A DNA stretch of 35,566 nucleotides, taken from positions 1,963,079 through 1,998,644 of the forward strand of contig MU004231.1 of the NCBI GenBank assembly GCA_010405405.1, written 5' to 3'. The stretch comes from Microthyrium microscopicum (Eukaryota > Ascomycota > Dothideomycetes > Microthyriales > Microthyriaceae). The position numbers and the translations under genes were made by a program. A model generated the notes under the pieces. That model worked only from the letters and a program-made list of their open reading frames with translations, did no database searches and had not been told where the DNA came from. How positions within the stretch are numbered: the first letter of the stretch is position 1; every line of letters starts with the position of its first letter. Below, one piece after another: positions 1 to 35,566 of the stretch.

Positions 1-198
1 AATATCCTATTAGATATAGAAGAAACTATAATTATTAAACCTGCCTTAATTCCTTACTTATATTATATTATGAAGTAGTATATAAGCTATAGCTACTAGA
101 TCTAGCATTATTAGAATTTAAATCTATATAAATATTTACTAGTTAGTTTCCTTTCCTATTTATTAATTAATATAAATAGTTATATTAATAGCCTAGAT

Positions 199-405
199 TT
201 AGACCTACGTATACTCTTTCTTACTAATTAATTATAAATATATAAATAGTATACTTATTAAACTCTACTTTAGTAAGATTTTCTCTATCTCCTATTATAA
301 TTATTTATATTAATACTTATAATTAGACCTATATATAGTCTTTCTTACTAATTAATGTAAATATATATAAATAGTATACTTATTAACCTTTACTTTAGTA
401 AGATT
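199..405. repeat. Degraded direct repeat, two copies of about 82 bp
   Basis: Copies at about 199-280 and 323-405 share a TTAGACC start, a CTTTCTTACTAATTAAT core and a TTTAGTAAGATT end. They differ mainly by small indels and C/T or A/G changes, as expected for a duplicated unit that later underwent RIP. Confidence 0.75.
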
Positions 406-1110: not shown

Positions 1111-1290
1111 CCTACTCTATAATAGAGTTAAGATATAGCTAATTAACCTTATAAAACTAGTATTAATAGCTATTATAGCACGCTAGCTATGTTATTTACC
1201 TATTTTATAATAAAGCTAATATATAGCTAATTAACCTAATAAAACTAGTATTAATAACTAGTATAGTATACTAGCTATGCTATCTATTTA
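1111..1290. repeat. Degraded tandem repeat, 88-bp period
   Basis: Copies begin at 1111 (CCTACTCTATAATA) and 1199 (CCTATTTTATAATA). Both continue through ATATAGCTAATTAACC and AAAACTAGTATTAATA. Differences are mostly transitions. A weak partial third copy may follow around 1310-1345. Confidence 0.75.
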
Positions 1291-4200: not shown

Positions 4201-5068
4201 GCCTCTCTAATTTTACTATTATTAAGCTTACTTACGTTATTATTTTTAATATTAATCTACTTATTATTATAGTTATTATCTTTAAGGCTACTACTAGAAG
4301 GGGATAGATTCTTAGATATATCTATATTAAATCCATCCTAGTTAGAGATATAATAGACTAATAAACTCTTACTATATATTTAGCTAAAAAATAAATAGGC
4401 TATACTAAATAAAGAGGCGTCTAGTCTAGAGTTAGGTAGAGAAAATAGAATAGACGCTATAATATTTAATAATAAGGCTATGTCTTCTATATTATTAATT
4501 AGAGGTTTTAGGAAGCTAAAATAGCGTAAGAAGATTTTATTATATACTTAGTAAGTACTATCTATTATTTCTTTATTCTTTATAATAGCGCTAAGCTAAT
4601 TAAACTCTATCTTATATAGTATAAGTATATTAATATTTAGTATACTAAACTAGTATTTATCTTTTTTATACTTTGTAATCTAAGGTTTAATAATATCTAG
4701 AATACTACGTTTTAAAGTATCTATAATAAGGTACTAGCTAATAGTTTTAATATATTTACTTCCTTAGCTATTAGCCTTTACTAATAGGCCTTCCTATATT
4801 AATTTCTAGTTAAACTCCTTTATTAAATTGTATATATCTTATATTAGTCCTTTTAGAGGTAAGGATAGATAAATTATAATAATAGTAGTAGTAATAGCTA
4901 CTATACTTATAGTATTACTTACTATCTTATTACACTTATAAGATATAAAGTTTATATTATTATAATATAGGATAGCCTAATAATTTAGTATATATTATTT
5001 AATATTTCTTTATATATTAGGCATTAGTAATATATAAGGTCTTTTAAAGTTATAAACTTAAGATTTTT

Positions 5069-5170
5069 AAAGATCTTATAAGATATATAAAGATCTTATA
5101 ATATATATAAAGATATTATAAAATATATAAAGATTTTATAATATATTTAAAAATTTTATAAAATCTTATA
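5069..5170. repeat. Short tandem repeat, about 20-bp unit, five copies
   Basis: The unit is close to AGATCTTATAATATATATAA. It repeats about five times and decays toward the right end. It lies wholly within AT-rich DNA. Confidence 0.8.
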
Positions 5171-6225
5171 TTTAATACTAAGTATAGTATTATTATATAC
5201 TAAAGCCTATCTTAAAACCTTCTTTATATATCTTAGTATAGTCTTATAACTAGTATATACTCTAAGAGCTACTAGTAAGTTAATAACCTATCTCTTTATA
5301 TTTAACTTAAGTAAATAGATACTAAGCGTTATTACTAAATAGTTATTTATCTCTCTACTTTACTAATAAAGAATAATTACTATAATTATATATATAAGCT
5401 TCTATTTTAGCTTATTACTTTATTTATATATCTTATAGTTCTAATTACGTATAAGTTTATAAAGGAAGGCTATCTAGATAGGTATAGTATTTCTTATCTT
5501 CTTAATAGCTTTCTTAAAGTTAATACTTATACTATCTACTTTACTATTAAAGTAGTTAAAGCTTATAAGTTTTATAAAGGCGTAAAACTCTACTTATAGT
5601 TTAGAATCTATATAATACTTTAGTAAAATTTTATTACTTAATAACTTTTCTATAACGTTCTTTAAAAACTTATAGTAAGTAATAACGTTAGTATATAGAT
5701 TACTATTAAGAATAATATTACTATAAGTATCTTTTTAGCTAGCTTATAATAGAAGAAACGATTTTATAGTTATCTTCTAATCTTAGATATATTTTAGTAT
5801 TAAAGTAAGCTTTTATTTAACTAAATTTAAGCTCTACTATAGTATTATTGTTACTACTAGTTATAAATAACCTAATAGTTTAGTATTATTAAGCTTATAT
5901 TAGATCCTACTTAAAGTATTTATAAGATCTATTATAGTTATTATATTGCTAGAGATATATAAATATAGACTCTTTATTATTATAGAGATAAATCTACCTT
6001 TACTACTATTATTACTAAAGAGAGGTACGCCTAGCCTATATAGAAATTAGGTTATCTTTATAAGATTCTTCTCTATAATACGTACTTTTAATAGAAAGTA
6101 TAATTTATAGAATTAATAAAGGAAAAGATAGTAATTATAATAATAGTAGAATTATTAAAAATATATATATATTAGTAATAAGGACACAATTATAATAATA
6201 TAGGCATTTACTAATAACTACGAAG

Positions 6226-10178: not shown

Positions 10179-12171
10179 ATGGATCCAATACAACATTTCA
10201 GCTCGTTGAGTAGTAGCTCGCATGGCTTTATGATTGCAGAAAAATGCTTGCGGCGAGCCACATTGATTCCGCCATACCATCGAACAAAATTGACAATTAT
10301 GAATCGGAGCCCACCAGAGTTAAGGATATCCTGGAATCCTGCCTTGGCTCAAGAGGAAGAAGAACCCAAAGGCTTCTGGACAAGATGGTTTGTTGATTGG
10401 TGGGCCTTCGAGATACTGAGTTGGCTTTTCAGCGCAATTTGTGTTGTAATCATCATAAGCGTCTCTCTCAAGTACGATGGTAAACCGGTCCCACAATGGG
10501 CAGGGCTGTCATTCAATGGACTTCTTTCGACGCTATCGGCATTCTTCAAATCAGCTCTACTCCTTCCTACCGCTGAGGCTTTAGGACAGCTAAAGTGGGA
10601 CTGGTTCAACAACAAACCCAAGGCTATGATAGATTTTGAGGTTCTTGACAAAGCCAGTCGAGGCGCCTGGGGCTCATTTATGTTGATATCCCGTTCAAAA
10701 GGGGTGTAAGTACTATGAACACCACGACTAGTCCTTCCGGATTGCTTAACTGATGCATCCAAGTAACCTCGCCACTTTCGGTGCAGCAATTATTCTGCTG
10801 TCTTTGCCGTTAGATTTTTTCTTTCAGCAATTTATACAATCTCCAGCTGTATGGGTTCAGACAAACAACGCCACATTGGCAAGATCAGTATATTACGATC
10901 CTAGCCCTAGTGTATATTTTCAGAATGGACAAATGATCATTGACCCAGATGTCTAGATGATTTCCGTTCTGTACTCGAATATGGGTCTCATTGACCCTCT
11001 GCCTGTTCAAGCAAATTATTCGTGTCCAACGAGCAAGTGTACGTGGGCTCCGTTTGATACGCTGGCAATTTGTAGCACCTGCAAACCAACACCCAGCATT
11101 CTGACCTACAGCTGTCAAGAAACTGCAAATGACTGGATGTTCAAGTCAGAAGTCGTGCCCGGTACCTTTGGCAATGCTACTTCCTGTGGCTGGTTTCTGA
11201 ATCCTCCAGCCGGCCCGCCAGTTCTGATGAGTGGAGTCGGTTTCAATCAGACAGTCGACAATACGTCACAGATACTTGTCTCCCGAGTCTTACCTTTAAC
11301 TGACCCTTGGACTAGAGAGCATATATATCCCAACGGTACACTCAACTTTAGTGACCTTGATGTGCCTATTGGGGACTTCTTTGTAGCAGCTTCACCAGAC
11401 GCCGCGGCCGTCCTTTTGCAACGGGAACCTGAACTGCACGAGTGCGCCATGTGGTGGTGCGTGCAAACAATGCATTCTGAGGTTGTAGGCGGTAGACTCT
11501 CCGAAGTAGTAATGGATAGTCGTCCTGTCCCCGCAACAAACCCTACGGGCCCATGGCTAACTCCAGCGGTTTTCAATACAGAGTATAACTTAACGCTCCA
11601 AGACTCCCACTCGCGAAGTAATCTTTCGATCTTCGGTACCGGCAACTGGACAGGAAGGGAGACCTTGGATGTTATTCAGACTTTTGCCCCCTCAACATGG
11701 GTTTCAGAAGATCCTGATGTTAATTCGACCTGGGGCAAGTTTGCTTGGAGAGGAGGAACCACTAATTCACAATTGGTGCCTGATGACACAAATCCCTGGC
11801 TTTCTACCACCAATGTTAGTGCAACTATTGATCGATTTGCAAAGCTGTTCTCAACAACTCTGCGAAGGACAGCTCATGGCACTACACATCAATTTGAGAC
11901 GGTGTCCGGAAGGGCATACGAGCAAATAGAGCATGTGAGGATTGTATGGGCGTGGATCACTTTGCCTTTAGTTTTGCTTGCGTTCAGTCTTGGTTTTCTG
12001 TCCGTCACAATATGGAGAAGCTCCAATGCAGAAAATACTGGTGTTTGGAAAACTTCAGCGCTTGCTGTCCTGTTCAAGGGGCCCAGTGAGCGCATTCAAA
12101 ATGCAACGGATTCGGCGAGCAGAATGAGACGCCATGCTACAAAAGTCCGCGGCAAGCTCGAAGATGTATGA
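10179..12171 (+). pseudogene. DUF3176 membrane protein, copy A, interrupted by one in-frame TAG
   Basis: Exons are 10179-10705 and 10764-12171, separated by a 58-nt phase-2 intron (GTAAGT...CCAAG) at the same site as in the three paralogues. The frame spans 644 codons, but codon 240 (10954-10956) is TAG. Everything after it is intact to TGA at 12169. Layout: short cytosolic N-terminus, TM1 at about 74-98 (WWAFEILSWLFSA), a second hydrophobic segment with the family core KSALLLPTAEALGQLKW at about 124-140, TM3 just after the intron, then a large ectodomain with C-x4-C-x10-C-x2-C (CPTSKC...CSTC) and ECAMWWC, many N-x-S/T sites, TM4 near the end and a VWKTSALAVLF tail motif. Paralogue D has Gln (CAA) at the aligned position, so a CAG to TAG change, in a CpA context, is the simplest cause. 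It could also be a rare allele or a sequence error. The acceptor is an unusual AAG. Confidence 0.85.
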
Positions 12172-13763: not shown

Positions 13764-16515
13764 CTACCTCACAGCCCATAACTTGATAGTTTTATCTCCA
13801 GATGCGGATGCAAGAACAAAGCCATCTGGCGAAAAAGCCACACTCCTGACTATCTTGCTATGACCACTGAATGTCTGTCTAGGAGTCTCTCCCCGCCTCA
13901 AGTCCCAAACTTTGACGGTTGTATCAGCTGAAGCAGAGGCTACCAGATAGCCATTGGCAGAGAAGGCTATACCACGGATCGAGTCAGTATGACCATTGAG
14001 TGTTTGTTGTGCGTACTTTAGCCGGCTATCCCACAACTTGATGGTACCATCCGCAGATCCCGAGGCCAAAAGCCCGCTTGCTGAAAAGGCCACACCATAA
14101 ACATAGTCACAGTGACCTTCTAGTGTTTGCTGCAAGTCTCCTCGTAGTGTGTCCCAAAGCTTTATAGTCTTATCACCCGATCCAGACGCTAAAATAGTCC
14201 CGTCTCGAGAGAAGGACACATCTCGCACCACATTGTCATGCCCCTTTAGAGTATGACTTTTGGTACCTGACCGTAAATTCCACAGCTTCACAGTTTGATC
14301 TGTTGATGCGGAAGCCAGTCTCGATCCATCAGGTGAAAACTCAAGTCCCCACACTGAGTCATTGTGTCCGTTTAGTGTCTGTTGTTCGACTCCCAACTGC
14401 GCGTTCCAGATTTTAATGGTCCTATCCATCGACGCTGACGCCATTGTTAAGCCATCAGGTGAAAATTTCACATCTCGAACCGCGTTCTCGTGTGACTCAA
14501 GAGTATACCGCTCCGCTCCTAGGCGCAAGTCCCACAGCTTTACACTTCTATCGGCTGAACCGGATGCGACGAACAAGCCGTTTGGAGAGAAGGCCACGCT
14601 CCACGTAGAGTCAAGATGGCCTTTGAGGGTTTGCTGTTTTTGCGCCGGTATGCTTCTCCACCAACCCGCCTTTTTGCTTTTGAGTAATGGCTTTGTTGCG
14701 ATGACACATTTCTCGCCGAGCAGATTGCTTGATATTCTACACGCTAGACTTTTTGAAGAAGCGTTTGGTAGACCCTTTTTGAATAGGGTGAAAGACTCCT
14801 CGTTGATATATGAGTCATCGTAACCATCGTGACTATCGTGACGAGTTCTTGATGATTGATGAATTGCTATTGTTTGAACTTGTGCCCGGGAGCCGGTAAG
14901 CATTCTGTTATCTGGTTGCTTTGCGGATTGTTCCAGGGACTCCTCAGGCCCATCATTTCCATCCCCTGGCCTTGCTTCGACTTCCATGGCCTTTAGGCAA
15001 TACAACTGTATGGGACTGGTTTCTGACTGGGAAAGCTGGCACAGAATGGCATGATATATCCCTGCATCGTTGTCTCTACCGCACAGCTGAAGTATACGAA
15101 TGAGATTTCGCAGAGCCTGTAAGCAGCAATCTAGCTGGCGGGGATATTGCTTTCTGAATCCCTTATAGGCTCGCCGAGCATAGAGAAGAGCTTCTGTCAA
15201 ATGGCTTTTCTCCACCAAGATTTCTGAAAGCATCAAAGTATCTTGAAGATGAGGAGCGCAGCTTTCAAGAACATCGGAGGAGGCCACAAAAGCAATCTTC
15301 TCCCTCAGCAGCTTTTCCGCTTCGTCCCACTTTCGTTGTGCTTTAAAGGCGAGAATCAAGCATGACAAGACCTCAATATGTAGAAAATGGAGGTCTTCAT
15401 TGTTTCTCCTTCTTTTTTTCTTCTTAAGCCACTTGACACAACTTTTTAGATCCGCTTCAGCCTCGCTGGATTTGCTTGCGTGAAGTTTGGCTTTGCCTTG
15501 CTGAAATAGTGCGAGAATAAGTTCCGATTCTTCCTCGTCAGCTGGATCTCCATCGCTTGCTACCTCCGTTTGTTCATCGCCATGTCGATCTCTTTTCATG
15601 AAGGCATTGGAGGAATGATCAGAAGCGTCATCAATAGAAGTTCGTTCATGTGATTTGATCCAGTCAATCATCAAGGTGTTCGGTCGGGGAAGAAAAGCTT
15701 CTCCAAAATCTGACAAGCAGAGAGTGTTTCGTTGACCATCATTGCCGTTACTGACTACAGTTGACGCCGAAGAAACCACACTGGCTGCAGAATTCAAACA
15801 GGTGCGTAGGTGATCCAATTGTTTGAATTGTGCGGATTGTTTCTTTGATGTACGCTCCTTGTTTCCAAGCTGGGTGTTTGATTTCATCTTTTCTTCCATG
15901 GAGGCTAGTCGATAGTTCATGTCAATAGCCAGCTCCTGTATCGTTGAATTTACTTGATTCAAAGTTGGGAGCCCAACCTGAAGAGCTTCGCTAGTAGAAG
16001 CTTGGTGCCATCTAGTGATTGTTTGGTCAGCAATAGATTCTGGGGTCACTGATATCTGTGTCAAGGACTTACAACAATGTCGTTTGTAAGGAAACCTGAA
16101 TTGTATCTTTGTAGGAGCGTATCTGCTGCTGATATACAGCAATTTCATGGGTGGCCGCATGGAGTCTAATGTGCTTTCGCGTAGAGTCTAAGAGATTCAC
16201 ATGCTTGTTGACGCGTACAATTGTGGTCTGAAGCGACTTGAGCGTTCCTTCCGCATCATCCAAAGACGTTTGAAGATGGCGCCAATGTGAGGTTAGACTT
16301 CCCTCAGATCTTAGAGAACTCTTTACTTTCGGTTCATCGATTATGTCTGTAACTTGGTCCAATATCTTCTCGAAGGCCGTGACTTCTTGCAGAAGCCCAT
16401 TAATTGCTGTCCCAACTAATTTCGTGCCGCTAATAAATTTCTTCAACTCCCAGCCGAGCCCGCTGCAGAGGCTTGCAATGGTGAGCGACGAGACGACAAT
16501 TGATAAGGGATCCAT
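13764..16515 (-). CDS. PigL_N-like domain, TPR-like and seven-bladed WD40 protein (NLR-like architecture without a visible NACHT)
   Basis: Exon 1 is 16515-16073 and exon 2 is 16011-13764. The 61-nt intron (GTAAGT, branch CTGAC, acceptor CACTAG) joins the two open frames in phase, giving 896 aa. Residues 1-148 begin MDPLSIVVSSLTIASLCSG and continue as amphipathic helices, matching the PigL_N-type N-terminal domain (PF17111-like) found on fungal NLR and ankyrin proteins. Residues about 308-470 are helical with TPR-like pairs (AEADLKSCVKWLKK, DEAEKLLREKI, ALLYARRAYKGF). Residues about 610-896 are seven WD40 repeats of 41-43 aa with GH and WD/WN dipeptides, enough for one propeller. No Walker A or B (NACHT or NB-ARC) motif is visible between the domains. 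Canonical fungal NLRs carry such an NTPase in the middle, so this may be a scaffold or sensor lacking the switch. Partner and function are unknown. It lies opposite in strand to, and between, DUF3176 copies A and B. Confidence 0.85.
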
Positions 16516-17225: not shown

Positions 17226-19324
17226 ATGGCTGGCCAGCCTTCTATCTCTGAGCAAGCAAGCCCACAATCTCCTACCAGTCCAATACCTGAGCCGGATACT
17301 CAATCAATAACCTCAACTCGTCAATACTCTGATAATGGTCTCAGCATAAACAACGACACATATTATGCAGAAACAAAATCTTCAGGCTCTTTTCAGACTT
17401 TCTATATCGCCTCGCAGCAACGAAAGTCTATAGGATCAAAACCTTCCGAATCATCTGCACAAAACCATGAACACTTGGAGATGGACCAACCCGGCTTCTG
17501 GAGAAAATGGTTCCTAGAATGGTGGGGAATTGAGCTTCTGAGCTTAGGCTTCAGCGCACTATCTATGGTTATTATCCTGATAGTACTTGCGCAATATGAT
17601 GGCAAAGGACTACCTCAATGGAAACTCGGCATTTCAATAAATGCTTTTATATCCATCTTTGCTGGATTTACCAAATCGGCTCTTTTACTCCCCACTGCAC
17701 AGGCTCTTGGCCAGTTGAAATGGAATTGGTTTACCAAATCTCGCCCTATGCACGATTTTGAGCTCTTGGACAGTGCTAGTCGAGGGCCTTGGGGCGCTCT
17801 ACTCCTCCTTGGTCGCATGAAAGGAATGTGAGTTACATCTTTGTTAGGTTCGTTCTTTAAAGAGTTGACTAATTCCTTCAAAGTACACTGGCGTCCATTG
17901 GGGCTGCTATAATTCTGCTTTCTGTACCGCTTGATCTTTTCTTTCAACAAATAGTGCAGTTTCCTACGGTCTGGATTGTATCTGGGGATGCAACCCTCGC
18001 TCGGACAATCTATTACAACCCGGTTCCAAATGAATACTATGTACAGGACGATACTGTTTACTCGCCAGATCCTACTACTGATTCTGCGGTTGAACCACTT
18101 ATTTGGTCAACGGGCAATCCTCAGCAAGTTCGTTCCAGCTGCCCCTCTAGAAGATGTACGTTTGAACCGTTTGAGAGCCTTGGGGTGTGTAGTTCATGTA
18201 TCGAACTACCCGACTTACTCAAATTTGGTGTTCGAAATGTTGTTGACAATTGGTCTGCGGATTCGGTGGCTAACCCAAACTTGGATAATCTCACAAACAC
18301 GCCATCTGTCGGATGGTATTTGGAAGCACCTGGTCAAGATCCGATCCTGATGGCAGGATATTCTTATCAGTCGAATGATACCTTAACTCCCAAGTCCATC
18401 CTCAGAGGAAGGATTGAACCCATGCGGGAAATGTTCACCAGACAAGCAAGATTCCCCGGTGGGACCATCAACTTTCACAACATTACAAATCCATTGGCAG
18501 ACTTCCTCATTGCATTCAATCTGGGAATTTTAGGTAGCTCGGATAGTGGGATATTTAATCAGACGCCCGTTGTTCACGAATGCGCTCTGTATTGGTGTGT
18601 ACAAACCATACAGGCTCGCTTGGAGGGCGGGATCATTGCTGAAAACATCACTGCCACCCGCCAGCTTGTTTCAAGCCACGCTGATGATCCGTGGGACCCG
18701 GATACTAAGACGTTTCTGACAAATTTCACACTCACAAAGCCTGACTTACAGAACCCGAAGGGAGCGCTATTAAACTTCGGAGTCAGCAATATCACAACTC
18801 GCACAACGATCCAGGTTTCAGAAATATTCTCTCCTTCTAGCTGGACAGAGTTCAATGGTGACACTACGATGGCGAAAGTGAATTGGAGAGGCAACCCATT
18901 CTACAATCGTCCCGTTGCAAATTCAGCGAACCCATGGAGCAGTCACAACGATCCAGTCGCGCATGTTGCAGCGATTGCTGAAGAGATGAGCAAGGCAATG
19001 CGGAACACTCCCCAAGGAGCGACTGATACATACGATCTTGTGATTGGAAAAGCATGGGAAGAACAGATCCGAGTGCATATTATATGGGCTTGGATCGTAC
19101 TGCCAGCGGTGCTAATGGCTATAAGTTTTGTTTTTCTGGCAGCGACAATGGCTCGAAGTTCAAGAGATGATTTCATTGGAATTTGGAAGACTTCGGCGTT
19201 AGCAATCTTGTTCAACGGTTTTGGGGATGATGTACAGAGGAAGATAGGAGGCTCTTCTACGGAACGTTTAGGACAAGCCAAAAGAACGGCTAAAGATTTG
19301 ACCGTCAGATTAGAAGAGGACTAG
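17226..19324 (+). CDS. DUF3176 membrane protein, copy B
   Basis: Exons are 17226-17827 and 17884-19324, with a 56-nt phase-2 intron (GTGAGT, branch CTAAT, acceptor AAAG); 680 aa, uninterrupted. Residues 1-90 are Ser/Pro/Gln-rich and probably disordered and cytosolic. TM1 is at about 99-123 (WWGIELLSLGFSALSMVIIL), a second hydrophobic segment with KSALLLPTAQALGQLKW lies at about 136-166, and TM3 (LASIGAAIILLSVPLDLFF) comes right after the intron. The ectodomain follows, with C-x4-C-x10-C-x2-C (CPSRRC...CSSC), HECALYWCVQT and several N-x-S/T sites. TM4 (IIWAWIVLPAVLMAISFVFL) precedes a short tail with IWKTSALAILFNG. DUF3176 is a fungus-restricted family of unknown function. The topology, with termini inside and one big extracellular domain, is inferred. 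Confidence 0.88.
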
Positions 19325-19888: not shown

Positions 19889-22051
19889 ATGGCCCACCTT
19901 TCTGTTCAGAGTCAGACTGTTCTAGATGAGCATCTCTCCTTATCCCCAAGGACACCAGATTTAGGTCAATTCCCTTCGCCAGTCAATTACGGATCAGTCA
20001 CACCCACGTCAGAACATCATCCTTTTTCAGAAAGGAGTTCGACCCAATTCCAAAAATCCTTCGTGGAGAAGTTCCAGAATACGTCGGCAAACTTCACCTT
20101 CAACTCCAAAGGAGACGAACAATTATCACAAAGTTCGGCAAGCCATACCGTCGGAAGTCGACTTCAGCGAGAAATTGAGGATGGTTGGCTATGGGAAGCT
20201 CTCAGCTGGGTGATAAGTGCGGGCTGTATGCTAGCACTAACTGTTCTTCTGGGGCTTTATAACAACAAGCCTTTACCGGCAAGGTGGCCTTCTGGCATCA
20301 GCCTGAACGCCGCTATATCTGTACTTTCTAGTATCGGAAAATATGCTCTCTCAGTCCCACTGGAGAACTCGCTTGGCCAGCTGAAGTGGATCTGGTTTCG
20401 AAGCAAAAAGACAAAAAAATTGATCGATCTAGAAAGATTTGACGAAGCAAGTAGAGGACCATGGGGTGCTTTTCTTCTACTGTGGCACATCAAAGGAAAG
20501 TAAGTGTTGAGCGATTCAACGATCCTTATACTTGTTGCTAAAACGAGGAACAGAAAACTTGCCTCGTTCGCCGCCGTAATAACCATCTTATCTCTGGCAA
20601 TGGATCCCTTTTTCCAACAAATTGTTGCATATCCGCAAAGGCCAGGCGAATTCGGTAAAAGCACGATTACGAGAGCCGTAAAGTTCTTCACTCACGAAAA
20701 CCTCGAGTACGCCAATGGAGGAAACTATAGTATTTCAGATGAGAGTATGTGGAGTGCTATGGAAAGCGCATACTTCGGTGACGGTAAAGAGTCAAAAATT
20801 GACGCATTCTGCCCTACATCAAACTGCCAATGGCCAGAATTCCAGACTTTGGGAGTTTGCAGCAAATGCCATGACGCCTCCGAGCTGCTTCAATTTGGAT
20901 GCATGCCAGAACGAGGGGAGTGGTTGACCCAGAGAAGCACAGCAATGCTGGGAATCAATCAAACAATCAGTACTGCACCAGTCCTATCTTGCGGATGGTT
21001 CTTCAATGCCAGCTCTGAAGATCGTATGCTGATGAGTGGATATGTCTTGGATAATACCACATCGCCCCCAAGTCCTGGAGAGGCTCTTTTCATACGCTCT
21101 TTAGCTACTGCTACACCTGCAGATGCTGACAACGTCACTTACTGGGATCGATCCTACTATTACAAGAATGAGTCAAATGCCTTGCCATTTTGGGACTTTC
21201 TGGTTGTGATGAACAAAAACGTATCTTCGGTGTATCTACATGAACGCCCAGAGGCTGCTGAATGTGTTCTGCAATGGTGCGTCAAAAACATCACTGCGTC
21301 GGTCATCAACGGAGAGTACAAAGAGGAGATTGTCTCGACATTCATCAACGAGACTCAGGTTGGCTATCCAGCTCGCCACGAATCCAAATGGAGGCCGCCT
21401 GGAACTTCATACATGCATGGTGTAGCAGATGTTATCATCGAGCCCCCAGGACAGGATGAGCAATTCTTCGTCCCAGACTATACGGTGTTCCAGACGGTCA
21501 ACCCTTTCTACTGTTTTATTCCATCATATATGACAGTGGCAAATATCACAGCAAATCCACTTATGCGAGTTGATAACAAGAATACAGGTGGAATGGACAA
21601 TTCCTACATACTGAACTTCAATCTCACTGAATGGTCAAAACCAAGCAACATATCCGTCTGGTCGGACATAATGGCAACTGCAGTTACAAACACTATTCGA
21701 AGTTTTCCAAACAGTTCTGAGCCAGTTCCCGGTTTCGGAGGACTGGAGACTTATATTCACATTCAGTGGGCTTGGATATCACTGCCGGTGATCATATTAT
21801 TTGGCACGGCTATGTTACTAATCTGTGTCATTATCACCGGACCAACAAAACAAGAAGGAGGAGTGTGGAAAACCTCTCCGCTTCCAATGTTACTTCATGG
21901 ACCCAGTTCACAGCTGCGAGCAGATTTTGGAGATGCATGGAGTATGTACGATATGAGAAGGAAGGCCAGGCAGGTGGATGTCGTCCTCAGGGAAGAAGTA
22001 GATGGATTAAGGTTTCATCCTGATAAGAATGGAAGTTATGCTGAGAAATGA
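19889..22051 (+). CDS. DUF3176 membrane protein, copy C (divergent)
   Basis: Exons are 19889-20499 and 20554-22051, with a 54-nt phase-2 intron (GTAAGT...ACAG) at the conserved site; 702 aa, intact. It is the most divergent of the four. The family core reads KYALSVPLENSLGQLKW (about 151-167) rather than KSALLLPTAEALGQLKW, and the segment before TM1 is WLWEALSWVISAG. The ectodomain keeps C-x4-C-x10-C-x2-C (CPTSNC...CSKC) and ECVLQWC but has a longer, different second half that includes PFYCFIPSY and extra aromatic residues. N-x-S/T sites are frequent. TM4 (WAWISLPVIILFGTAMLLI) is followed by VWKTSPLPMLLHG and a Lys/Glu-rich tail. The N-terminal 95 residues are Ser/Thr/Gln-rich. It may bind a different partner from A, B and D, but that is only inference from ectodomain divergence. 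Confidence 0.85.
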
Positions 22052-23333
22052 ACGGGTTGTGTACTAACCAAGATAACAAGATCTGTACATAGGTAGTTCA
22101 TTATTCTTTCTGTTCGCTTGATGTGCACATGATGAAGCAGGTCTACATTACAATATCCAAGATGAAGCGACTTCTGGAGTTTTTCATCAACGGTCATTCG
22201 CTTCAAGATTTTGGTCAGCTGCAAGCGAAGTGGAAGTCGTAGGGATTGGCCAGCACTTAGAACTGACTGCAAGCATAATGCAAGTTCTTGTGATCAGTGG
22301 CCAACTGGATCAAAAGGCGATGTTCCTGCATTGCAGGCTGCAGTATTTCTGCCATGCGATGTGTGAGAATATTATGAGTAGAGTGCAGGCTCCTCACTGC
22401 CAGCCTCTGAAGTTAGAAAGGACGGTTTGGTGCAAAGTCCTTACAATTGAGCTCAACGATGGCGAAAAAGGGTAGGTGTTTACCAGCATAACAGGTAGCA
22501 TCGACTTCTCCAAGTGAGGTGGGCCGAAAGCTTGAGCCAATGGCAAACATCGCGTTATCCGCCGAGTGAAGGTTCCAAAAATTCCTCAAACACTTCCCTC
22601 TCTCTGGGCGTAAAAAGGCCGCTGAAGGGGCCGCTGGAAATCATGCGAAGGCGGGGTTTCTTAAGGAAAAAGAAGCAGACAAGCAGGTTTTTAACCAGGC
22701 GGATAAAAATATCTCAAGGGCGACCGTCGAATCCGGGGGTTGGGCTGTGCGAGAAGAGCTGCCAGTACTGGGAACCTATCAAAGCGCGTTGGCCGGCGCG
22801 TACGTGCATATGCAAAGCCACTCTGTTTGCCGTGATTGGCGATGTCTCGTTTAAGCTCATCGAATAACAAAGTCTGCGTCTAGAAATCCAAGTTGATTTG
22901 CTCTTACAGCTCCAACTCTACCGAGAAGCAGGACTCATGATCCAAGAAGTGTCCGAGCAGACTGCCCGCGATGTACATATTTTACCGCTTCGAATGCAAC
23001 TCCGCCCCACGCGATGCCTGTTACGGATGTCAGATAGGCCGCGGATGTTGACCACCTGCAACATTGAACCTACAGAGACTATCCTCGCCGCAGGATCCTA
23101 AATGCAACCAATTTGCAAGATGCGGGCTGGACCTCATAGGCATATCTAACTGCATGTCTACCCCTCCCACCCTGTTGTTGGTGTTGTACTCGGGTCCACA
23201 CTTGCAATCGTGATCTTCAGTAACCTGTTGTAGCACCAAATTAGCTTCAAGAGGTCGATATTCATCTGTTTTGTTCTTTGCCATACCCATCTCTATCACT
23301 GATCCACATCACCCTGAGTGGTGTTGCTCTACC
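22052..23333. other. Long intergenic region between DUF3176 copies C and D
   Basis: There are 1282 bp with no gene I can support. A GC-richer part (about 22520-22860) has a 94-codon stop-free frame (22570-22851) but no ATG at its start, no domain and no splice signals that join it to a partner. A Cys-rich 26-codon ATG frame near 22974 is probably chance. The right end holds the copy D promoter. Confidence 0.45.
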
Positions 23334-26035
23334 ATGGTCGATTCTCAATCAAGCAACATTAAACAGTTTATTCGAAGTGGAAAGTTCTCAAAACGTCTCA
23401 ACCTGAACCGACCAAGAGCACCAGAGCCATCCCTTTCCACCATTCACTCCGCGGGGTCAGACGAAGAAGATGGCAATTCCACTGACATTGAGGATTTTCC
23501 GGAGGAGAAGAATGGAGTAGTGAAGGCGGTAGCAAGGGAGGACAATGCAGCCGATGGCTCTGAGTCTACGAACAATCCACAAGGTGGAAGGTTAGTCACT
23601 GGTCAAAGACCACTTCTATCTGGTGTTCTTTCCAATATCGCCAACCTCGCCAACCGGAGGTCAAATACCAGTCGGACCTCTACAGCAAGCCGGTCAAGTC
23701 GGACATCAATGTCCACACGTTCTTCAATTGCTTCTTCTACTGGCGGGCTGCCAACCATAACAGAAATCCCTCCTCTGCCCGGGCTTGTTTCCGATCACGG
23801 TTCATTGCCGCCAACATCAGAACCACCCTCAACTCCGCCTTTAGAAGACCACATTATGCCGGTAATACCTCCCCATCCAGGTTTCACCCCAGTCCAGCAA
23901 TGCGATAACAGCGACACTCATTCCCAAGGTTCAACACTTGTGGGATCTCCACCTCGTCACAACGGAAACTCTCAGATACCTCCATATTCTATTTCTGATG
24001 TATTTGCAAACTCACCACCTCCTCCTATGCCCTCATGGCCATTGCCATCAGATACAATGAGCGAAAAGAGTGGCAAGAGCTCTCTACCTTTAACAGCTTC
24101 GCCTCACTCTTCGCACTCCTTTGCCTCAACTCCAGCCTATAGCCCACCCTCATATTGTCAGCCTTTTGGGGATAGTAATGCCCCTGGCTCAAGATTCTCA
24201 TGGCATGTTACACCAGTCGATCGGGCTCGAAACTGGTTTACTATTTGGTTCGTAGAATGGTGGGCCTTTGAAATCATTAGCTGGCTGTTTAGTGCAGTTT
24301 GCATGGCGATTATCTTGGGCGTTTTGTTCCGTTATAACAACAAAGAAATACCCCATTGGAGAATCGGCTTTACTCTTAATGCTTTCATTTCAATACTCTC
24401 GGGGTTCGCCAAATCTGCTCTTCTTCTTCCGACGGCAGAAGCGCTCGGACAACTCAAATGGAATTGGTTTACCAAGAAATCTAAAGCCATGCTAGATTTC
24501 GAAGTCCTTGACAGTGCTAGTCGCGGACCTTGGGGCTCTATGGTGTTGCTCGCACGAACTAAGGGAGTGTAAGTCTGACATGGTTGACAACCTACCGCCG
24601 ATATGCTAATGTACTTTACAGAACCCTTGCCTCAGTTGGTGCAGCCATTATCCTGCTCTCATTACCGCTTGATCTATTCTTCCAACAGATTGTCCAGTAT
24701 CCCAACGTAATGGTCGCACTGGGAAATTCAACTCTCACAAGATCGGTGTATTATGACCCTATTCCAGAAACAGTCTTGCAAAGCGGCTCTACGATCACGA
24801 ACCCGAACGCGCAAATGGTCGCCAACCTGTGGGAGATGATAACTGCCAAGCAGCCTTTGCTCACGTCGCCTAACTTCACTTGCCCAACCAGCCAATGCAA
24901 TTTTCAACCATTTGATACCCTTGCGATATGTAGCTCATGCACAGCGGTACCGGGCCTTCTTGAGTACGGCTGCAAGAATGCTACCAATGAGTGGATGGCT
25001 GACGCATCTACTGACCCCGACGACTTTACTAATACAACTGCCTGCGGATGGTATCTCAATCCTCCAGGACAAACTCCCATCTTGATGAATGGATATGCCT
25101 ACAACGCTTCTACTCAAACGCCTGGAGAAATCCTTGTTTCAAGAATCGTGCCATTGAGAGACATTTGGACTCGAAAACCCGTCCTTCCCAATGCCACTAT
25201 CAACTATGGGGACATTATCAATCCGTTGGGCGATTTCATTATTGCGTCATCTCCGGATGCCAAGTCTGTTCTTTCAAACAAGCCTCCTGAAGTTATCGAA
25301 TGTGCAATGTGGTTTTGCGCGCAAACACTCAGGTCTCAGATTAAAAATGGACAGCTCTCAGAGCAGATTCTGAAGACTCAAGTAGTACCTCCAACGAATA
25401 CTGGTAATCCTTGGAAGACATCTGCTTGGTACGACAACTCTTTCAACCTTACTCTTCCAGACTCCCGCAGCTCAAGTGGCTCATCTGTGTATGGAACTGG
25501 GAATTGGACGGGCCGAACCACTTTGGACATAGTACAAGATTTCGCTCCTTCGACCTGGACCAGCCAATCCAGCCAGGATTCAACAATCGCAGGGAAATTC
25601 AATTGGAGATCAGGTACGCCAGACGTGAAAACGATTCCTTTGGAGACCAGTCCCTGGATCACGACTTCGAATGTTACCCATAGCGTGACAACAATGGCAG
25701 AAAGCATGTCCGCTGTCTTGAGACGAACTTCACATGGCTACTCAAATCAATTTGAGTTTATCCAAGGAATAGCCTACGACGTCAGGACTCACGTTCAGAT
25801 ACGATATTTCTGGATCATCCTACCTGCATGTTTGCTACTCTTCAGTTTTGTTTTTTTAATGGCGACAGTCCTCAAGAGCTCGAAAGATGATAAGAAGATT
25901 GGCGTTTGGAAGAATTCGGCACTCGCGGTTCTGTTCAATGGTCCATCTGATGACGTTCAAGACCGAATGGGCAGTCAGCTCAAGTTAGGCTCTGCAAGGG
26001 AGAAGGCACGGAATATTCGAGTGACGTTGGATTGA
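23334..26035 (+). CDS. DUF3176 membrane protein, copy D (long disordered N-terminus)
   Basis: Exons are 23334-24568 and 24622-26035, with a 53-nt phase-2 intron (GTAAGT, branch GCTAAT, TACAG); 882 aa. The ATG at 23334 is in a strong context (CTACCATGGTC); earlier in-frame codons are non-ATG. Residues 1-300 are Ser/Pro/Thr-rich with arrays such as NTSRTSTASRSSRTSMSTRS and proline runs, so they look disordered and phosphorylatable. TM1 is at about 309-334, a second hydrophobic segment with KSALLLPTAEALGQLKW is at about 347-378, and TM3 is at about 413-435. The ectodomain carries C-x4-C-x10-C-x2-C at about 499-518 and ECAMWFC. TM4 is at about 805-829, followed by VWKNSALAVLFNG. The ectodomain is closest to that of copy A; both contain YGTGNWTGR or FGTGNWTGR and FAPSTW. 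It appears intact and is the best reference for copy A's missing codon. Confidence 0.9.
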
Positions 26036-26786
26036 TAAACCAATGGCTGCTTGCTTTCATCCGAAATTATGTAATACCCATGAGACATGTTTATACGTTC
26101 AAATATTATACTTCACCTTTCTTAATTACGGAGTACATCATGAGACCATATTGACCTAGGCGAGTCCTCGGTTTACGGAATGTCTTGCAACGTCGAGGTT
26201 CCGATTATGGACTCAATTCTATTAACAATTAGTAGAAACACATTGACACACCTTGACCGCCGAGGAAATAGGTAACCGTCTGAAAGTCAGGAAAAAGGCC
26301 AGGCTTGCTTTTCTACCAATAAAATCTGCCAAGCGTACGGTCATCGAATACGGCAAGTCAATCTGCACCGGCACCAGCAGCAAATCACTACGGTCATGCT
26401 AAGAGAGGGCTGAGGTGTTCAAGATATCTCGACCTGGTACGCCAGGCCGAAATGTAGCATATAATTGAAGTAATGAGTTGCCTCGTTCCATTCCTAATTT
26501 GAGACCAGTCCACTATGACAGAAGAAATTTTTGAGCTAAAAGATGTATCCCAACCAAAAGTATATACAGAAATTTGTTGACATGAAAGAATCGAAGAGTC
26601 GAAGAATTGAAAAGTCGAAGAATTGAAAAGTCGAAGAGTTAAAGATGTGTACAGTGAACGGAGGTTGGTCGAAAATGCTGGACTCGAGGAGCTCCTGGCT
26701 CTTAAGTCTGAATGTATAAGCTGCTGACACGATTAGCTCAATCAATGGTTGACAAGGCAGTATCATCTGAAAACTCACGATCGTCC
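26036..26786. other. Convergent intergenic region between copy D and the repeat-peptide gene
   Basis: This should hold the 3' UTRs of both flanking genes. A short tandem repeat occurs at 26588-26640. No ORF has support; the minus-strand frame 26536-26778 merely reads through that repeat. Confidence 0.5.
26588..26640. repeat. 16-bp tandem repeat, about three copies
   Basis: The unit is GTCGAAGAATTGAAAA, perfect at 26598-26613 and 26614-26629 with partial copies on both sides. It probably lies in the 3' UTR of the minus-strand peptide gene. Confidence 0.75.
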
Positions 26787-27220
26787 TCAGTATCCGCTTT
26801 GCATGGCATCTTTACGCTTCTCCTTGTAGCCACTTTGCATGGCATCTTTACGCTTCTCCTTGTAGCCACTTTGCATGGCATCTTTGCGCTTCTCTTTGTA
26901 GCCACTTTGCATGGCATCTTTGCGCTTCTCTTTGTAACCACTTTGCATAGCATCCTTGCGCTTCTCCTTATAGCCACTTTGCATGGCGTCTTTGCGCTTC
27001 TCTTTGTAGCCGCTTTGCATGGCATCTTTGCGCTTTTCCTTTACAAAGTGCTCTGTCTGCATATATGTCAGTATGCATGGTTCGTATGTCTGGACTTTCA
27101 ACTTACGCCTTCACTTCTGACAGCCATCGGAGCTATTGTACTGATCGAAGAGACAGGGGCGGCACTAGCTGTCCAGGCTAGAGCAGCGGACAATACCAGA
27201 AGAAGATTGACTTGAACCAT
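26787..27220 (-). CDS. Kexin-processed repeat peptide (KEP/RiPP-type) precursor with seven KEKRKDAMQSGY repeats
   Basis: Exon 1 is 27220-27107 and exon 2 is 27056-26787. A 50-nt phase-0 intron (GTAAGT, branch CTGAC, acceptor GCAG) joins them; 127 aa. Residues 1-20 are a signal peptide (MVQVNLLLVLSAALAWTASA, cleavage before APVSS). Residues 21-43 are a short pro-region, and 44-127 are seven perfect 12-residue repeats KEKRKDAMQSGY followed directly by TGA. Each repeat has one Lys-Arg site, so kexin cleavage after KR with carboxypeptidase trimming would give copies of KDAMQSGYKE and one KDAMQSGY. This is the layout of KEP proteins and of UstA-type RiPP precursors, where a Tyr-containing core is repeated. 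I do not recognise this core. No tyrosinase or DUF3328 gene is visible nearby, so unmodified secreted peptides are equally possible. The gene sits about 1.5 kb from the right AT-rich block. Confidence 0.88.
26790..27041 (-). repeat. 36-bp coding minisatellite, seven units
   Basis: Seven exactly in-register 36-nt units encode the peptide repeats. Units differ at nine of the twelve codons but only by synonymous changes (for example CGT/CGC, AGT/AGC, GGA/GGC/GGT, TAC/TAT). Confidence 0.95.
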
Positions 27221-28928: not shown

Positions 28929-30381
28929 TTTATATATAGATTAGGGTTAATATTATAGGGTTATTTTTATATTATTTAATTCGGAATTTTACGTAGATTA
29001 CAATGGTATTATTAGTTTTTTAATAGCTAGTCTTATTCTATAGTTATTATACTTTAAACATAAAGTTATTTAATTATATTATATTTTTAAAGGTTATTTA
29101 GTTATATAGTACTTAATATTATAAATTACTTAATAATATTTTAGATTTAGGGTTCTAGATTTATAATACATACGAAACTATAAAAATTAGACCTAAATAT
29201 ACTAATAATTAGTTTAAATACTAATAATTAGAAGTTAAGAGTATAAAACAATTAAGAAAAAGAGATAAATCTTAAAAATTTATATAAATAACTTAATAGT
29301 AGTAGATTTTAAGATAAATATATAAATTATTATATATTTAGATTCATTAAAGTATAAGGAAAACAGCCCTAGAGTTAGTTTTTTAATAAGTCGCTTATAT
29401 ACTAATATATAGTAGTATTTAAGAGTTTTTAATAAATATATTAATAAAAGTTTAAGGTTTATATTTTAATACTAGATAAATAAGGAGTATTATAGGTTAT
29501 TAAAGATCTTATATATATATTAGTATTATATATATACTATAATCTAGATTTAAGATCTTATCTAAGCTTAATAAAGATAAAAAATAATAATAAAGATAAT
29601 AATTAATAATAATAATATTCTAAAAAGAAATTATATTTAAGACTTTAAACCTATATTATAGTAAAGACCTTAGTAGTAAGTATATATTAGTCTCAACTAT
29701 ATTATATAAATATACTAAAATAGCTATATAATCTTAAATCTAAGATTATATTTAAGATTTATAAAATAAGAATTTAAAATATATATCTTTTAAATAATTA
29801 TTTTATAACTTAAATATAAGTAGCTACATAGTAGTAATATATATAAATATATATACTAAAATATTCTAGATTTTACGATCTATCTAATGCTATAGGTCTC
29901 AAAGCTTATTCAAGTCTAGTTTTAATACTATTACTAATAATACTATTTTATTTTTAATAATTATAATTTACTTAATAAGCTAGAATAAGGGTTTTGCTAT
30001 AGTATACCTAAAGTAAAAGGTATAACTATTATAATTATCTATATTTTAATTTATTTTATAGTATACTAACTACTAATACCTATATTTAAGTAATAAAATT
30101 CTATATATTCTTAAAATCTTTATTTATTTATATTATATTTAATTCTTTTATTCTACTCTTTATAATATACTATTAACGTCTAATTTCTATATAAATTCTA
30201 ATGCTACTAACCTTATATCCTATAAACTACTATCTAACCCTTTATTCTAATTTAAATAGTCTACTTTCATTTAATACAAATACTTATTTTAAGTTAAAAC
30301 AACATTTTTTTATTTCTTTTATTTAAATACAATCCTAACTCTACTAACGCCTAAATAACAAATATAAACAATTTAACTCCT
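28929..30381. other. AT-rich stretch with no readable gene
   Basis: Dense stops in all frames and strong TpG loss. It lies downstream of the hAT transposase frame and may include the element's 3' end, but I could not identify terminal inverted repeats. Confidence 0.5.
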
Positions 30382-32718
30382 CTAATAATTACTTTCCTCC
30401 TCGCTATCACTATCACTATCACTACTATCCTCTTCTAGTAAATATAATAAAGACTTTTATAGCTCTTTAATACTAGGCATTTGCCAGTTTTTTAACTAAA
30501 TAATCCATTTAGAAGTTTCAGCTAAAAGCTTATTTCTATCATTAGAAATAATATTACCGCCAATACTAAATATACTTTCAGCACTAGCTAAAGTAACAGG
30601 TATTATTAAGTATTTCTTAGCTAAGTAAAATAAAACAAGAAATTCTATTTGTTTTATATTCCAGTATTTTAAAAGAGATATTTTAGGATCAGTAACGTGT
30701 ACTTCTCTTAAATAACGAACAAATTCCTCTTCTATAGGAGTATTCTCACTAATTAGAATAAAAAACTCGTTTTATTATTTATTTAGAATAATAATAAGAA
30801 TATTACTATTTTAAGTACCTAAAGAACTAGGATTTAGCTTTCTAAAAGCTATATAATACTCGTCTTCAAATAGTTTAGATATATTACTTAGAATATCATC
30901 GTAGTAATATAATATACTATAAGGCATATTTTTAAAATACTTTGTTTTATATCTAGGATCTAGAATTAATACTAGAATAAAAGGTTTTAACTTTTTTACC
31001 TATTCTAGATTATAAATCTTACAAAGATAGTACTCTTCTAGCTTTTTAATACCTACTTTTATAGCTTTAACAAAGTATTTACGCTCTAGATAATTAGCTA
31101 ATAAAATAGATCTAACAGACATTAAAAATTCAAGCATCTTTTCTTCTAATTTATTAAATAAAGAATAAATATATAAAAGCGTTCAATTTAATATAGTATA
31201 AATTTGCCCTTATAGAGTAACTATAGGTACATCAAAAAACTTAAGAATATCTTTTAAATTCTTTAGTACTAACTAATTAGCTTTATTAAAAGTAAACTTC
31301 TTTTTAAAGTTTTTATCCTTAGTATTTATAAAGACATATTCAACGCATAATTTAAGCTTAAAAAGACACTCTAAAGTATAATACATAGAGTTCCATCTAG
31401 TATTATTATCTATAGGTACTTTAGTAATTTATACCTCTTTAGGAATTAATCCTTATTCAAGATAAAGCTTTCTAGATAATTCAAAGTTTTTTTAATATTC
31501 TATCTCGTATTTAATACCCTTTACTACTCTTTTAAGTCTACCTATAAGACTTTTAGAAGCTATATTATCTAGAATAGCTTCTAGTTCAGCTAGTATAGTA
31601 TTTACATTAATAAGAGTAGCTCTTTCTCTAGCAGATTTTATTTCTTTATCATAATTAACTAAAAATACTCTTAAAACAGTTTTAGCAACTAGATTAATTA
31701 TATGCGCAACACATCAAATATCATAGAAATCTACAGTAGAGCCCTATAGTTCTTTTTCAGCTTTTAGCTATTCAATAAGTATAGTATTATTACTAGCGTT
31801 ATCTCACAAAAAACTAATAATATTATTAAGACTTAAATCAAAAGACTTAATAATTCTATCAAATACACTATAAAGATAAATACTAGTATAATTAGAAGTT
31901 AATCTTTCAAATCCTAATAGCCTATACTATATTTTACAATCTTTACTAATATAAACTACTATAACACCTAAAAAGGCATACTAATTAGAACTACTAGTCC
32001 AAGCATCTAGCGCAATTACAAAATAATCATTTCTAGACACTACAGCTTTTAATTCACGCTTTAGCTTCTCTTTAGCAGTATCATAAATAGAATATAGTAA
32101 ATTCCTTATATTTTTACAATTAATTATAGGACTATAACAATTATAATACTTTAGTAGTTCTTTAAAAGAATTAGAACTATAAGCATTAAAAGAAAGGTTA
32201 TTTTCAACTATAAATTTTACTATTAAGTGCATAGCACCTTCGTTAGTAAATTCCTAATTAGTATTAGCTCTTACTCGTTTATTACTAGTTATAGCTATAA
32301 AAAAAGGGGTATTATTACCTTTAGATTTAATTCTAGCGCGATATTTCCTAATAGTCTCTTTATTAGTTTCATCGTTCTTATTTAAAGTAACCATTTTATA
32401 GGCTGCTTTATAGTATTTAATAAAGTTAGAGGTTTAAAAACCTTCTAATTTAACTATAAGACTATAGGAACAAAGAGTATATCTAACTCTAACTTCTCTA
32501 TGCTTAGTAACATCAATAGGAAGTAGTTCTCTAATAAATAGCCCATTAGAAAGAGCATAAGCTTTAGAATTTCTATCATTTAATTAAAAGTGCTATTTAT
32601 TATACTTATAATAAGCATAACTAACATTACTAAAGATATTAGACGCACTATCTCCAGGCACTATAGAATTAGCATTTAATACTTAGCTAGCTCCTAGCAT
32701 ATTATTACTATCCATCAT
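30382..32718 (-). mobile_element. Degraded hAT-superfamily transposase (DNA transposon remnant)
   Basis: A single minus-strand frame runs from ATG at 32718 to TAG at 30384-30382, exactly 779 codons, with many premature stops but no net frameshift. hAT hallmarks appear in order in that frame: FVIALDAWTSSSN (near 31985-32030), DNASNNT, CVAHIINL, TRWNSMYYTL, LDPRYK and the C-terminal dimerisation motif ASAESIFSIGGNIISNDRN, followed by an acidic Ser/Asp tail (SSDSDSDSEEE). Stops that I read fall where Gln (CAA/CAG) or Arg (CGA) is expected, for example codon 12, while Trp codons survive. That is C to T change on the coding strand. The element is inactive. Flanking inverted repeats and the target-site duplication were not found. 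Confidence 0.92.
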
Positions 32719-33099
32719 TTTAAAGAATAGTAAACTTCTAAAAGAAAGAAATCTATAGAATAATACTTAAAGCTAGATAAGCAAAAGTAAAGAGACAGTT
32801 CTTATTATTTATATTAATAGATAGATAGTATAAAATAACTAGTCTTAAATACCAAAACTAAGTATAGCAAAAAATAAATAAGAAAATATTTTTTTTTAAT
32901 TTTAGAGATTTTAAAGATTTTTAGATATTTTTTTAGATATAAGTAAATCTAATAGCAAAATTACTAGAACAAGAGTAAACTAGATACAAGATAAATAATC
33001 AAAGTAAATAGAAAAGCTATAAAGCTATAATTGAAATAAAAGCTTAAAAAAATACTAGAAAAATAGTAAATAATCTAAATATTCTAATAGTAGAATTAG
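32719..33099. other. AT-rich sequence upstream of the hAT frame
   Basis: Probably 5' non-coding DNA of the transposon or flanking repeat DNA. No gene or clear repeat was seen. Confidence 0.4.
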
Positions 33100-33391
33100 C
33101 TAAATAAACTAATACTAAAGAACAAGAGCAAATAAAAGCTAGAGGCTATAAAAGCTAATCCTAAGAATAGAATAGTATAGAAATATATTATATAGCAATA
33201 GCTTTTATATAAAAAAACACTTAAAAAGTAGTTTCTAACTAGAATTTCTAGTAAAATACTAACTAAATAAACTAATGCTAAAGAGCAAAAGCAAATAAAA
33301 GCTAGAGGCTATAAAAGCCTAACCCAAAAAGGGAATAGTATAGAAATATATTATATAGCAATAGCTTTTATATAAAAAAACACTTAAAAAA
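33100..33391. repeat. 129-bp direct repeat, two copies
   Basis: Copies at 33100-33228 and 33263-33391 begin CTAAATAAACTAAT and end AAAAAAACACTTAAAAA. They are separated by 34 bp and differ at few positions. Their similarity within RIP-affected DNA suggests a fairly recent duplication, or one below the length that RIP detects. Confidence 0.85.
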
Positions 33392-34401
33392 AAAAGTAAA
33401 AAAGTCAAAAAATATAAATACTATATAGTAAGTATAAAAACAAGATTTAGGTAGTAAGAAGAAGTAGACTAGCTACAAATAATACAGAGAGTAACAGCTA
33501 TAGATAGCAGTCTAGCTCACAGGGGGGGGGAATGTCTAAAAAACCAAGAATTCTAAGTAAAATCCGCCTCTATAAGTATACACACAACGCTAGATTAACA
33601 CATACTAATCACCATCATATTCAGCAGGTTTAGAGCTACCAAACGCCATTAAGATTACCTCTTTTAGGCCAGTATTGCAAAAGTTATAGGTAATAATAAT
33701 AAGGAGTAATATTAAAACTATAAAACAGTCTATTATAATAGAGTAAACGCATAGTAATAAACACAGTTTCAAGAGGCTAGACCCCATAAAACAACGCTAA
33801 ACAGGAGTATAAACACCAAGAGTTTTAATAGTAAATACATTATTAACCCTTTTAATAATACCATTTATATAGCTTGTTTACTTTATAACAATATTACCCC
33901 TTATTATTATTATACATAACTTTCGTAATACTAGCCCAAAATAGGTAATCTTTACGGCGTTTAGAAGCGCTAAACCTACTAAATACAATAGTACTATTTA
34001 GGTCTTCATCACGAGTCGTTATTATATATATATCCTTCAGTTACCCACAAAGAACTTACTTTTCAACAATCCACCCATCACTTCTACTTTCCTATTAAGG
34101 ACTACATTTCAGTAGTATCTAGAAGTAGCCTTAGAGGCTATTTCTACTTATCTTTTACTTTATTCTATACAATATCTCTTAGTAAGAATTCTTTTTCTTT
34201 TTTTTTTTTTTTTTTTTTTTTACTTATTAACTTTCTAGTCTCTATACCCAATCTAGTATACTTTTATACTAGTTTTTAGTACTATTTAAATTAGTAAATT
34301 CTTCTCTATTAAATAGTATAGCTTTTATATTTTTATTAACCTCATAGCGTAAGTTATCCATTCCTTTTTAACTTTTTTTTTTTTTACTTATTATTTATTA
34401 T
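33392..34401. other. Non-coding stretch with homopolymer runs
   Basis: A run of nine G lies at 33522-33530 and a run of 24 T at 34198-34221. A hydrophobic 60-codon minus-strand frame (33605-33787) has no recognisable family. The right part probably holds the upstream region of the degraded gene beginning near 34402. Confidence 0.5.
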
Positions 34402-35354
34402 AGAGACGTAGCAACCGCTAGATATTTCAAAAGTAAGTCCCCCCTACTCCTCATTATAGCCTCAACTAATTTATATTTTTTTATAGAGCTTTCCCTCAAC
34501 AATTCCCATATCAAACTACAAAGATTCTTAAATAAATTCTTAGGTTACAAAAACGCCCTTTTATCCAAAAATAAATTAAACTATAATTCTTAGATACTAC
34601 AACGTAAATAGGCAGGAAATCAGGAATTTAGATATATTATTTATATTCACCAAGAGTATAATCTACGACGTGTATATCTCAATTTCTTACCCCTTTTAAA
34701 AGGAAGAAACGTTAAATCTTTTATAGTTTATTTCGTCTTAGAAATTAGGCAAGTTGATTACAAAGCTATATTCTTACATAATAGTAAGGAAACTACTATT
34801 CCTATTACTTACAAGCCTATTGCTATCTAGTCTTCTCGTAGTTCTAAAATAGAACTATCTTTACCTAAATTGATAATTAACTAGAAAGGTCTCAAAGCTA
34901 ATTAGTCAGAAGCTACTTTTAAACCAGATCCTATAACACCTAGGTAAGCCCTTTATACTTCTTTTTATTTAAATTATATACTAACTCTTTATAGTGGTAA
35001 AGATTATATACAAAAAGTATATAAATCTAACCCAAAATAGAATTCTAAGCTAAATGCTTCTCACGCTACAGAACGTTAAATTAAGCATTAAAAGCTACTA
35101 AATAACTATGCCCTAGCGAAGAAGGAACGAGTAGCTAAACAGAAGCTAAAGCATCTTCTTTAGAAGGTTAATAATATTACTTTTATTTACTTTATTTTAC
35201 TAATTTTTAATAGAAACTAAAGCTTAAAAAAGCTATAGATTCACAAGAATCTAGCCCTACCCCTAGTACTACTTCTAATTCTACGTACATAGATAACGCT
35301 AGTATTAATACTTCTAATCTAGATATAGATTACGACCCAGATCGTTTCTTTTAG
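34402..35354 (+). pseudogene. Degraded three-exon gene of unknown function
   Basis: A protein-like + strand frame survives despite AT bias. The segments are about 34402-34943, 34995-35166 and 35214 to about 35354. Two introns remain recognisable and join the segments in phase: 34944-34994 (GTAAGC, branch ACTAAC, TATAG; 51 nt) and 35167-35213 (GTTAAT, branch ACTAAT, AATAG; 47 nt). Nine premature stops occur before 35354, seven of them TAG, as expected from Trp codons, whereas Gln codons (CAA, CAG) survive. Readable stretches include QEFRYIIYIHQEYNLRRVY, then a Lys-rich helix (AKKERVAKQKLKHL) and a Ser/Thr-rich, Asp-rich C-terminal part. The true start is not clear. The frame may continue past the stop at 35352-35354 toward the window end. 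I do not recognise the family; a transposon accessory gene or a captured host gene are both possible. Confidence 0.6.
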
Positions 35355-35566
35355 TTAAATTTCTATATTTTTTCATTAAAGTTAGGATTTCCTTACAAAA
35401 TTGCTTACATAATTAAAAAAAAATATCTACTATCTTCTAGAGCTAAATTTTCTTATTTAAACGCTATATTTATTATATCTTAACTCTTAGTATTACCTAT
35501 AGTATTTAATAAATAAGTTTTTTTAAAATTAATAATAAATATAAAAAATAAGAAGTAAATAAGAAA

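Follow-up and report, generated by a model that had tools for sequence, protein, structure and literature searches.

The question raised by this locus of Microthyrium microscopicum, a fungus with a leaf-litter habitat, is what is released from a small gene built around a perfectly repeated 12-residue unit and what the fungus does with it. The window, the whole 35,566-nucleotide stretch that was analysed, corresponds to C2:1963079-1998644 of the genome searched (36,878,185 bases, 20 contigs). The earlier note had placed at 26787..27220 a spliced gene for a 127-aa product with seven perfect KEKRKDAMQSGY units, and all of this proved right on translation and by TRF, which returned a period of 36 and 7.0 copies for the repeat region. 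The explanation favoured here, to which a probability of about 0.72 is given, is that the gene encodes an orphan KEX2-processed repeat protein (KEP) from which Kex2 and Kex1 would produce six linear KDAMQSGYKE peptides and one KDAMQSGY, probably acting as an extracellular signal. The parts of the gene are as follows.

27107..27220, minus strand: exon 1, exactly 38 codons, with the start, the signal-peptide-like region MVQVNLLLVLSAALAWTASA and the greater part of the pro-region (translation, hydropathy)
27057..27106, minus strand: intron of 50 nt, phase 0, GTAAGT...ACTGAC...CAG (sequence-based model)
26787..27056, minus strand: exon 2, with TEHFV, the seven repeat units and TGA (translation)
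27042..27056, minus strand: start of exon 2, the final pro-region residues TEHFV (translation)
26790..27041, minus strand: seven tandem 36-nt units, each KEKRKDAMQSGY (translation, TRF)
26787..26789, minus strand: stop codon TGA, immediately 3' of the last Tyr (translation)

The order of exon 1, intron and exon 2 on the minus strand, and the 127-aa translation predicted from them, can be read directly from the DNA. The N-terminus of the product is hydrophobic, with a 10-residue hydropathy maximum of 2.78 (judged by composition only), and the intron has the donor GTAAGT, an ACTGAC 10 nt from its end and a CAG terminus. Many GT-AG pairs in the gene region retain the open frame. This was the sole model in the 364 nt tested once three demands, chosen after the gene had been seen, were imposed (GTRNG at the donor, CTRAY at the branch site and hydrophobicity at the N-terminus), and the alternative introns were rejected on the same three grounds. 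In dinucleotide shuffles a spliced model appeared in 4/5,000 and any model in 85/5,000. The gene is predicted to be transcribed and spliced as modelled. Two sub-threshold Pfam matches to the product, zf-NOSIP (25.9 bits against a cut-off of 30) and YmiA-like (18.5 against 27), were dismissed as composition artefacts, no stretch passing alone in either case. Downstream of the gene, at 26586-26639 of the window, there is a short tandem repeat, AAGAATTGAAAAGTCG.

The best evidence for the peptide's importance to the fungus is the silent-only divergence of its repeats. Nine nucleotide columns vary among the seven units, all nine at the third codon position and silent; units 4 and 5 are identical in nucleotides. 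For at least 10 events the probability that all were silent by chance is between 9e-9 (kappa 1) and 2e-6 (kappa 10), values that are approximate, since tandem units are copied from one another and their events are therefore partly dependent. Since every variable column is silent, selection keeps the 12-residue unit in the minus frame and so maintains the repeat peptide. It was also considered whether the locus is no gene at all, being a minisatellite, or is coding in another frame, as a plus-strand ORF of 167 aa (26712-27215) covers the same place. That is extremely improbable, as it is in the minus frame only that the nine variable columns are all silent. When six units were compared in the other five frames, four had 8-9 of 12 residue columns variable, and the fifth, on the plus strand, had two variable residue columns but a stop codon in 5/6 units. 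In the frame of the 167-aa ORF all eight variable columns (8/8) fall at codon position 1 and 8/12 residue columns vary over the six units, and the ORF is without a Pfam match at E 0.1. The plus-strand ORF and the other frames were ruled out as coding by this frame-wise residue variation and the stops.

The layout of the product, a signal-peptide-like N-terminus, a short pro-region and repeats with KR sites, is that of the KEPs surveyed by Le Marquer 2019 (PMC6339444) and Umemura 2020 (PMC7329392). The repeat definition given in the latter requires at least three tandem repeats of at least eight residues between KR, KK, RK or RR, none longer than 100 residues; here there are seven 12-residue units with a KR in each. 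A repeat share of at least 15% of the protein is set in PMC6339444, and in this product the repeat makes up 84/127 residues, between dibasic sites. A kexin gene in the genome also belongs to the definition, and a profile search of the fungus's own genome gave one kexin-type P_proprotein match (C1:1728256, E 1.4e-25). The pipeline described in PMC6339444 also demands a non-membrane protein, by a TMHMM step. The proposal that this is a kexin-processed repeat precursor is therefore supported, both by the KEP repeat criteria tested and by the P_proprotein match.

As described in PMC9769878, Kex2 cleaves after dibasic sites and Kex1 then trims, and linear KEP-derived peptides have been demonstrated by mass spectrometry. 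By applying this scheme of the KEP literature to the product we infer secretion, cleavage, trimming and the linear form of the peptide, as well as its role. The product would enter the secretory pathway by way of its putative signal peptide, Kex2 would cleave after each KEKR in the late Golgi and the C-terminal Lys-Arg would be trimmed by Kex1. As the last unit stops at Tyr before the stop codon, the peptides predicted to be released outside the cell are six linear copies of KDAMQSGYKE (computed M 1155.523) and one of KDAMQSGY (computed M 898.386), and these exact masses are now available to look for the peptides of this KEP. A cyclised, UstYa-modified form would not be expected. The context of the cleavage site, with Lys at P1' (KR/KD), is non-ideal for kexin and counts against the KEP explanation. 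Cleavage being a predicted step, the product might instead stay uncut, as a lysine-rich secreted repeat protein of the cell wall or surface, and it counts for this that wall proteins too can carry perfect short repeats; it is nevertheless unlikely, given that KEKR is retained in every unit and that so large a part of the product is repeat between dibasic sites, as in KEPs. The released peptide would most likely serve as a small signal outside the cell or mediate interactions with other organisms. The functions of KEPs are mostly unknown according to PMC9769878, in which six kep genes of Coprinopsis are described as knocked out without phenotype and roles in biotic interactions are suggested. 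By analogy with the roles suggested for those KEPs, it is proposed that the peptide may signal, outside the cell, to kin or neighbours.

Attempts to find relatives began from both the product and its core. Against ~5.8 billion proteins the product gave no match at E 1 among 4,431 candidates of ~70-222 residues, and a twenty-fold tandem of the unit gave none at E 10 among 6,463 candidates of 132-420 residues; other relatives may be missed, as candidates had to share exact words and to be of like length. That these searches yielded no homologue from another species, by which conservation might be judged, counts against the KEP explanation. The latter search, which had been put forward as a check, supports an undescribed core. 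Fungal proteins are present in the database, the neighbouring DUF3176 ORF having given 33 matches. Although the database includes a protein that probably comes from this genome, it gave no match for the product; annotation may therefore have missed the gene, and the number of short, spliced KEP genes may be underestimated. No second copy was found in the genome, its search returning the two exons and one chance-level match (on C1, E 0.26, 26% identity). Four core fragments were absent from the main text, as distinct from the supplements, of 5.39 million papers. Within those databases and that text the core appears to be undescribed, and it is by these unmatched fragments and by the want of a homologue for the product that the gene differs from catalogued KEPs. 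The description of the gene as undescribed-looking is thus correct within the searches, but such a gene is common among KEPs: Umemura 2020 counted 7,878, of which 2,560 were stand-alone, without homologue, and 22% were accompanied by DUF3328 genes (PMC7329392). On these figures there is nothing unusual in an orphan KEP that has a private core and no UstYa gene beside it: the type is ordinary, the sequence new. The main text of the two KEP surveys (PMC6339444, PMC7329392) makes no mention of Microthyrium. What the gene adds to the KEP class is a core sequence unmatched in the searches, together with evidence, drawn from the gene's own repeats, that selection acts on the peptide.

A UstA-type (dikaritin) precursor, the other layout named in the earlier note, would be a RiPP precursor in which a UstYa-type enzyme cyclises the Tyr of each core by oxidation. 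The precursors of ustiloxin, phomopsin and asperipin-2a share with this gene the layout and one Tyr per repeat, and UstYa genes are present in the genome, with at least 22 exon matches to PF11807 that were grouped here into 12 loci (profile-match counts in the genome being lower bounds). The Tyr is weak support, as one is also present in 38.2% of the repeats of KEPs that lack a linked DUF3328 gene (PMC7329392). The nearest PF11807 match listed on C2 ends at 671,618, 1.32 Mb from the gene, against a mean of 3.09 genes for KEP-linked DUF3328 (PMC7329392), so that in the readable sequence, the flanks holding N runs, no UstYa (DUF3328) lies near the precursor. Tyrosinase gave at least 16 matches in the genome, none on C2 among the matches listed, and the EDYXI motif given in PMC6339444 for ustiloxin and phomopsin is absent from the core. 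A script searching between KR/RR sites for three or more similar fragments detected repeat precursors in three of the 12 UstYa loci, each taken as 10 kb, with cores unlike that of this gene:

2468-2743 of L018: KEP-like frame, core GVVTWADVSKR, beside a UstYa gene
6667-7566 of L025: KEP-like frame, core EPRDWSKWSFEIPA, beside a UstYa gene
48-773 of L027: KEP-like frame, core YFAGTEYIA, beside a UstYa gene

These frames have the kexin-site repeat layout in common with this gene but are UstYa-linked, and the three are candidate dikaritin-like loci. In L018 a signal-like frame lies just upstream of the repeat frame (seen in translation only), a similar layout which speaks for the dikaritin alternative, and its units have four variable residue columns. 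The silent-only differences in L025 and L027 arise partly by construction, as only exact-core units were compared; in L025 many different segments are mixed between KR sites. Around the gene itself the script found no repeat precursor in the readable sequence of four 10-kb flank pieces (L012-L015), N occupying 5,504 bases on the left (L013 from 4,497 to its end) and the first 1,215 bases of L014 on the right. UstYa could act on the precursor from an unlinked locus. KEP-like loci with linked UstYa do occur in the genome; this gene was not observed in any of them. The dikaritin alternative was accordingly not upheld and is improbable, on account of the distance to the nearest UstYa, the lack of a tyrosinase match on C2 among those listed and the different precursors that three of the 12 UstYa loci have of their own.

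Ascomycete alpha-type pheromone precursors, which are likewise multi-copy with Kex2 sites and no linked UstYa, offer a further comparison, and a mating pheromone precursor of this fungus was considered on that ground. In yeast MF-alpha-1 the last pheromone copy abuts the stop, as does the last copy in this gene. The genome has a STE2-type receptor match (C5:468585, E 9.3e-67), and two cysteine-type pheromone DNA patterns gave eight and six single matches (controls 2 and 1) and no tandem array. A caveat that must be applied to these counts is that the two patterns cover part of the known pheromones, PYGxPxG lying outside them, and that 12 of the 14 match loci were examined. At the six loci read per pattern there was no tandem array, and those with short frames show no evident precursor. 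Pheromone-like letters were seen at L035 (WTACRHPGQQC, in a 22-residue frame) and at L041 (match at 1501; KR-WCCCHGQRC, in a 19-residue frame). With the receptor present and no other alpha pheromone gene revealed by the two partial patterns, a mating role keeps some, though low, odds. Dothideomycete pheromone signatures are given in PMC6339444 as two conserved Cys or PYG[L/M]P[I/V]G, and the STE13 signature as XA/XP dipeptides after the kexin site. Unlike such pheromones, the core KDAMQSGYKE has neither the Cys pair nor PYG[L/M]P[I/V]G, and KR is followed by K-D-A, so that XA leads only if one Lys is lost first. The composition of the decapeptide (two Lys, one Asp, one Glu and no Cys, Trp or Pro) likewise speaks against its being a membrane-active peptide or a classic pheromone. 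An alpha-type pheromone is therefore unlikely, and the orphan KEP remains the preferred reading.

To the left of the gene are four tandem DUF3176 genes, identified by Pfam.

10179-12171, plus strand: DUF3176 gene
17226-19324, plus strand: DUF3176 gene
19889-22051, plus strand: DUF3176 gene
23271-26035, plus strand: DUF3176 gene

The Pfam run covered 16 of the 27 window ORFs and the spliced product, the other 11 being overlapping ORFs or the unspliced form of the gene; apart from DUF3176 the window matches were UBX, GNAT and WD40 repeats beside a PigL_N-like ORF. DUF3176 has at least 21 exon matches genome-wide. TM-like segments occur in the DUF3176 ORFs, and 8-14 N-glycosylation motifs were counted in every gene's long downstream ORF, so that a large glycosylated extracellular part of the proteins is plausible. 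The peptide might on this basis be a ligand or partner of the adjoining membrane proteins, and a bolder version would make it a peptide hormone confined to the lineage of this litter fungus, with the neighbouring tandem family as receptor. If the latter were true, DUF3176 would gain its first function, the sensing of peptides, and a KEP and its receptor would be paired at one locus. Both ideas must be rated very unlikely, as five of the 12 other DUF3176 loci were scanned, over 6 kb apiece, and none had a KEP, so that there is no sign of a recurring adjacency. A sixth locus (C9:1837543), at the edge of L026, had no KEP by a stricter scan. L026 (C9:1831997-1834222) has four UstYa matches, with this DUF3176 match within 6 kb, and the script found no repeat precursor in it.

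On the other side, to the right of an AT-rich block, 10 of 18 ORFs (at least 110 residues, outside the N run) were scanned; five matched, to a short-chain dehydrogenase, a fungal transcription factor domain, a lipase, an MFS transporter and a ferritin-like protein, and five did not. No RiPP-type enzyme set was seen among the scanned ORFs of the window and right flank. The window holds a gene island of ~45% GC between AT-rich blocks of 16-27% GC (~1-6200 and ~29000-35566), with N stretches beyond the window, and the blocks are perhaps RIP-degraded repeats. Within the island the WD40-repeat ORF (13764-16160) and the overlapping PigL_N-like ORF (16069-16515), both on the minus strand, are perhaps one spliced gene.
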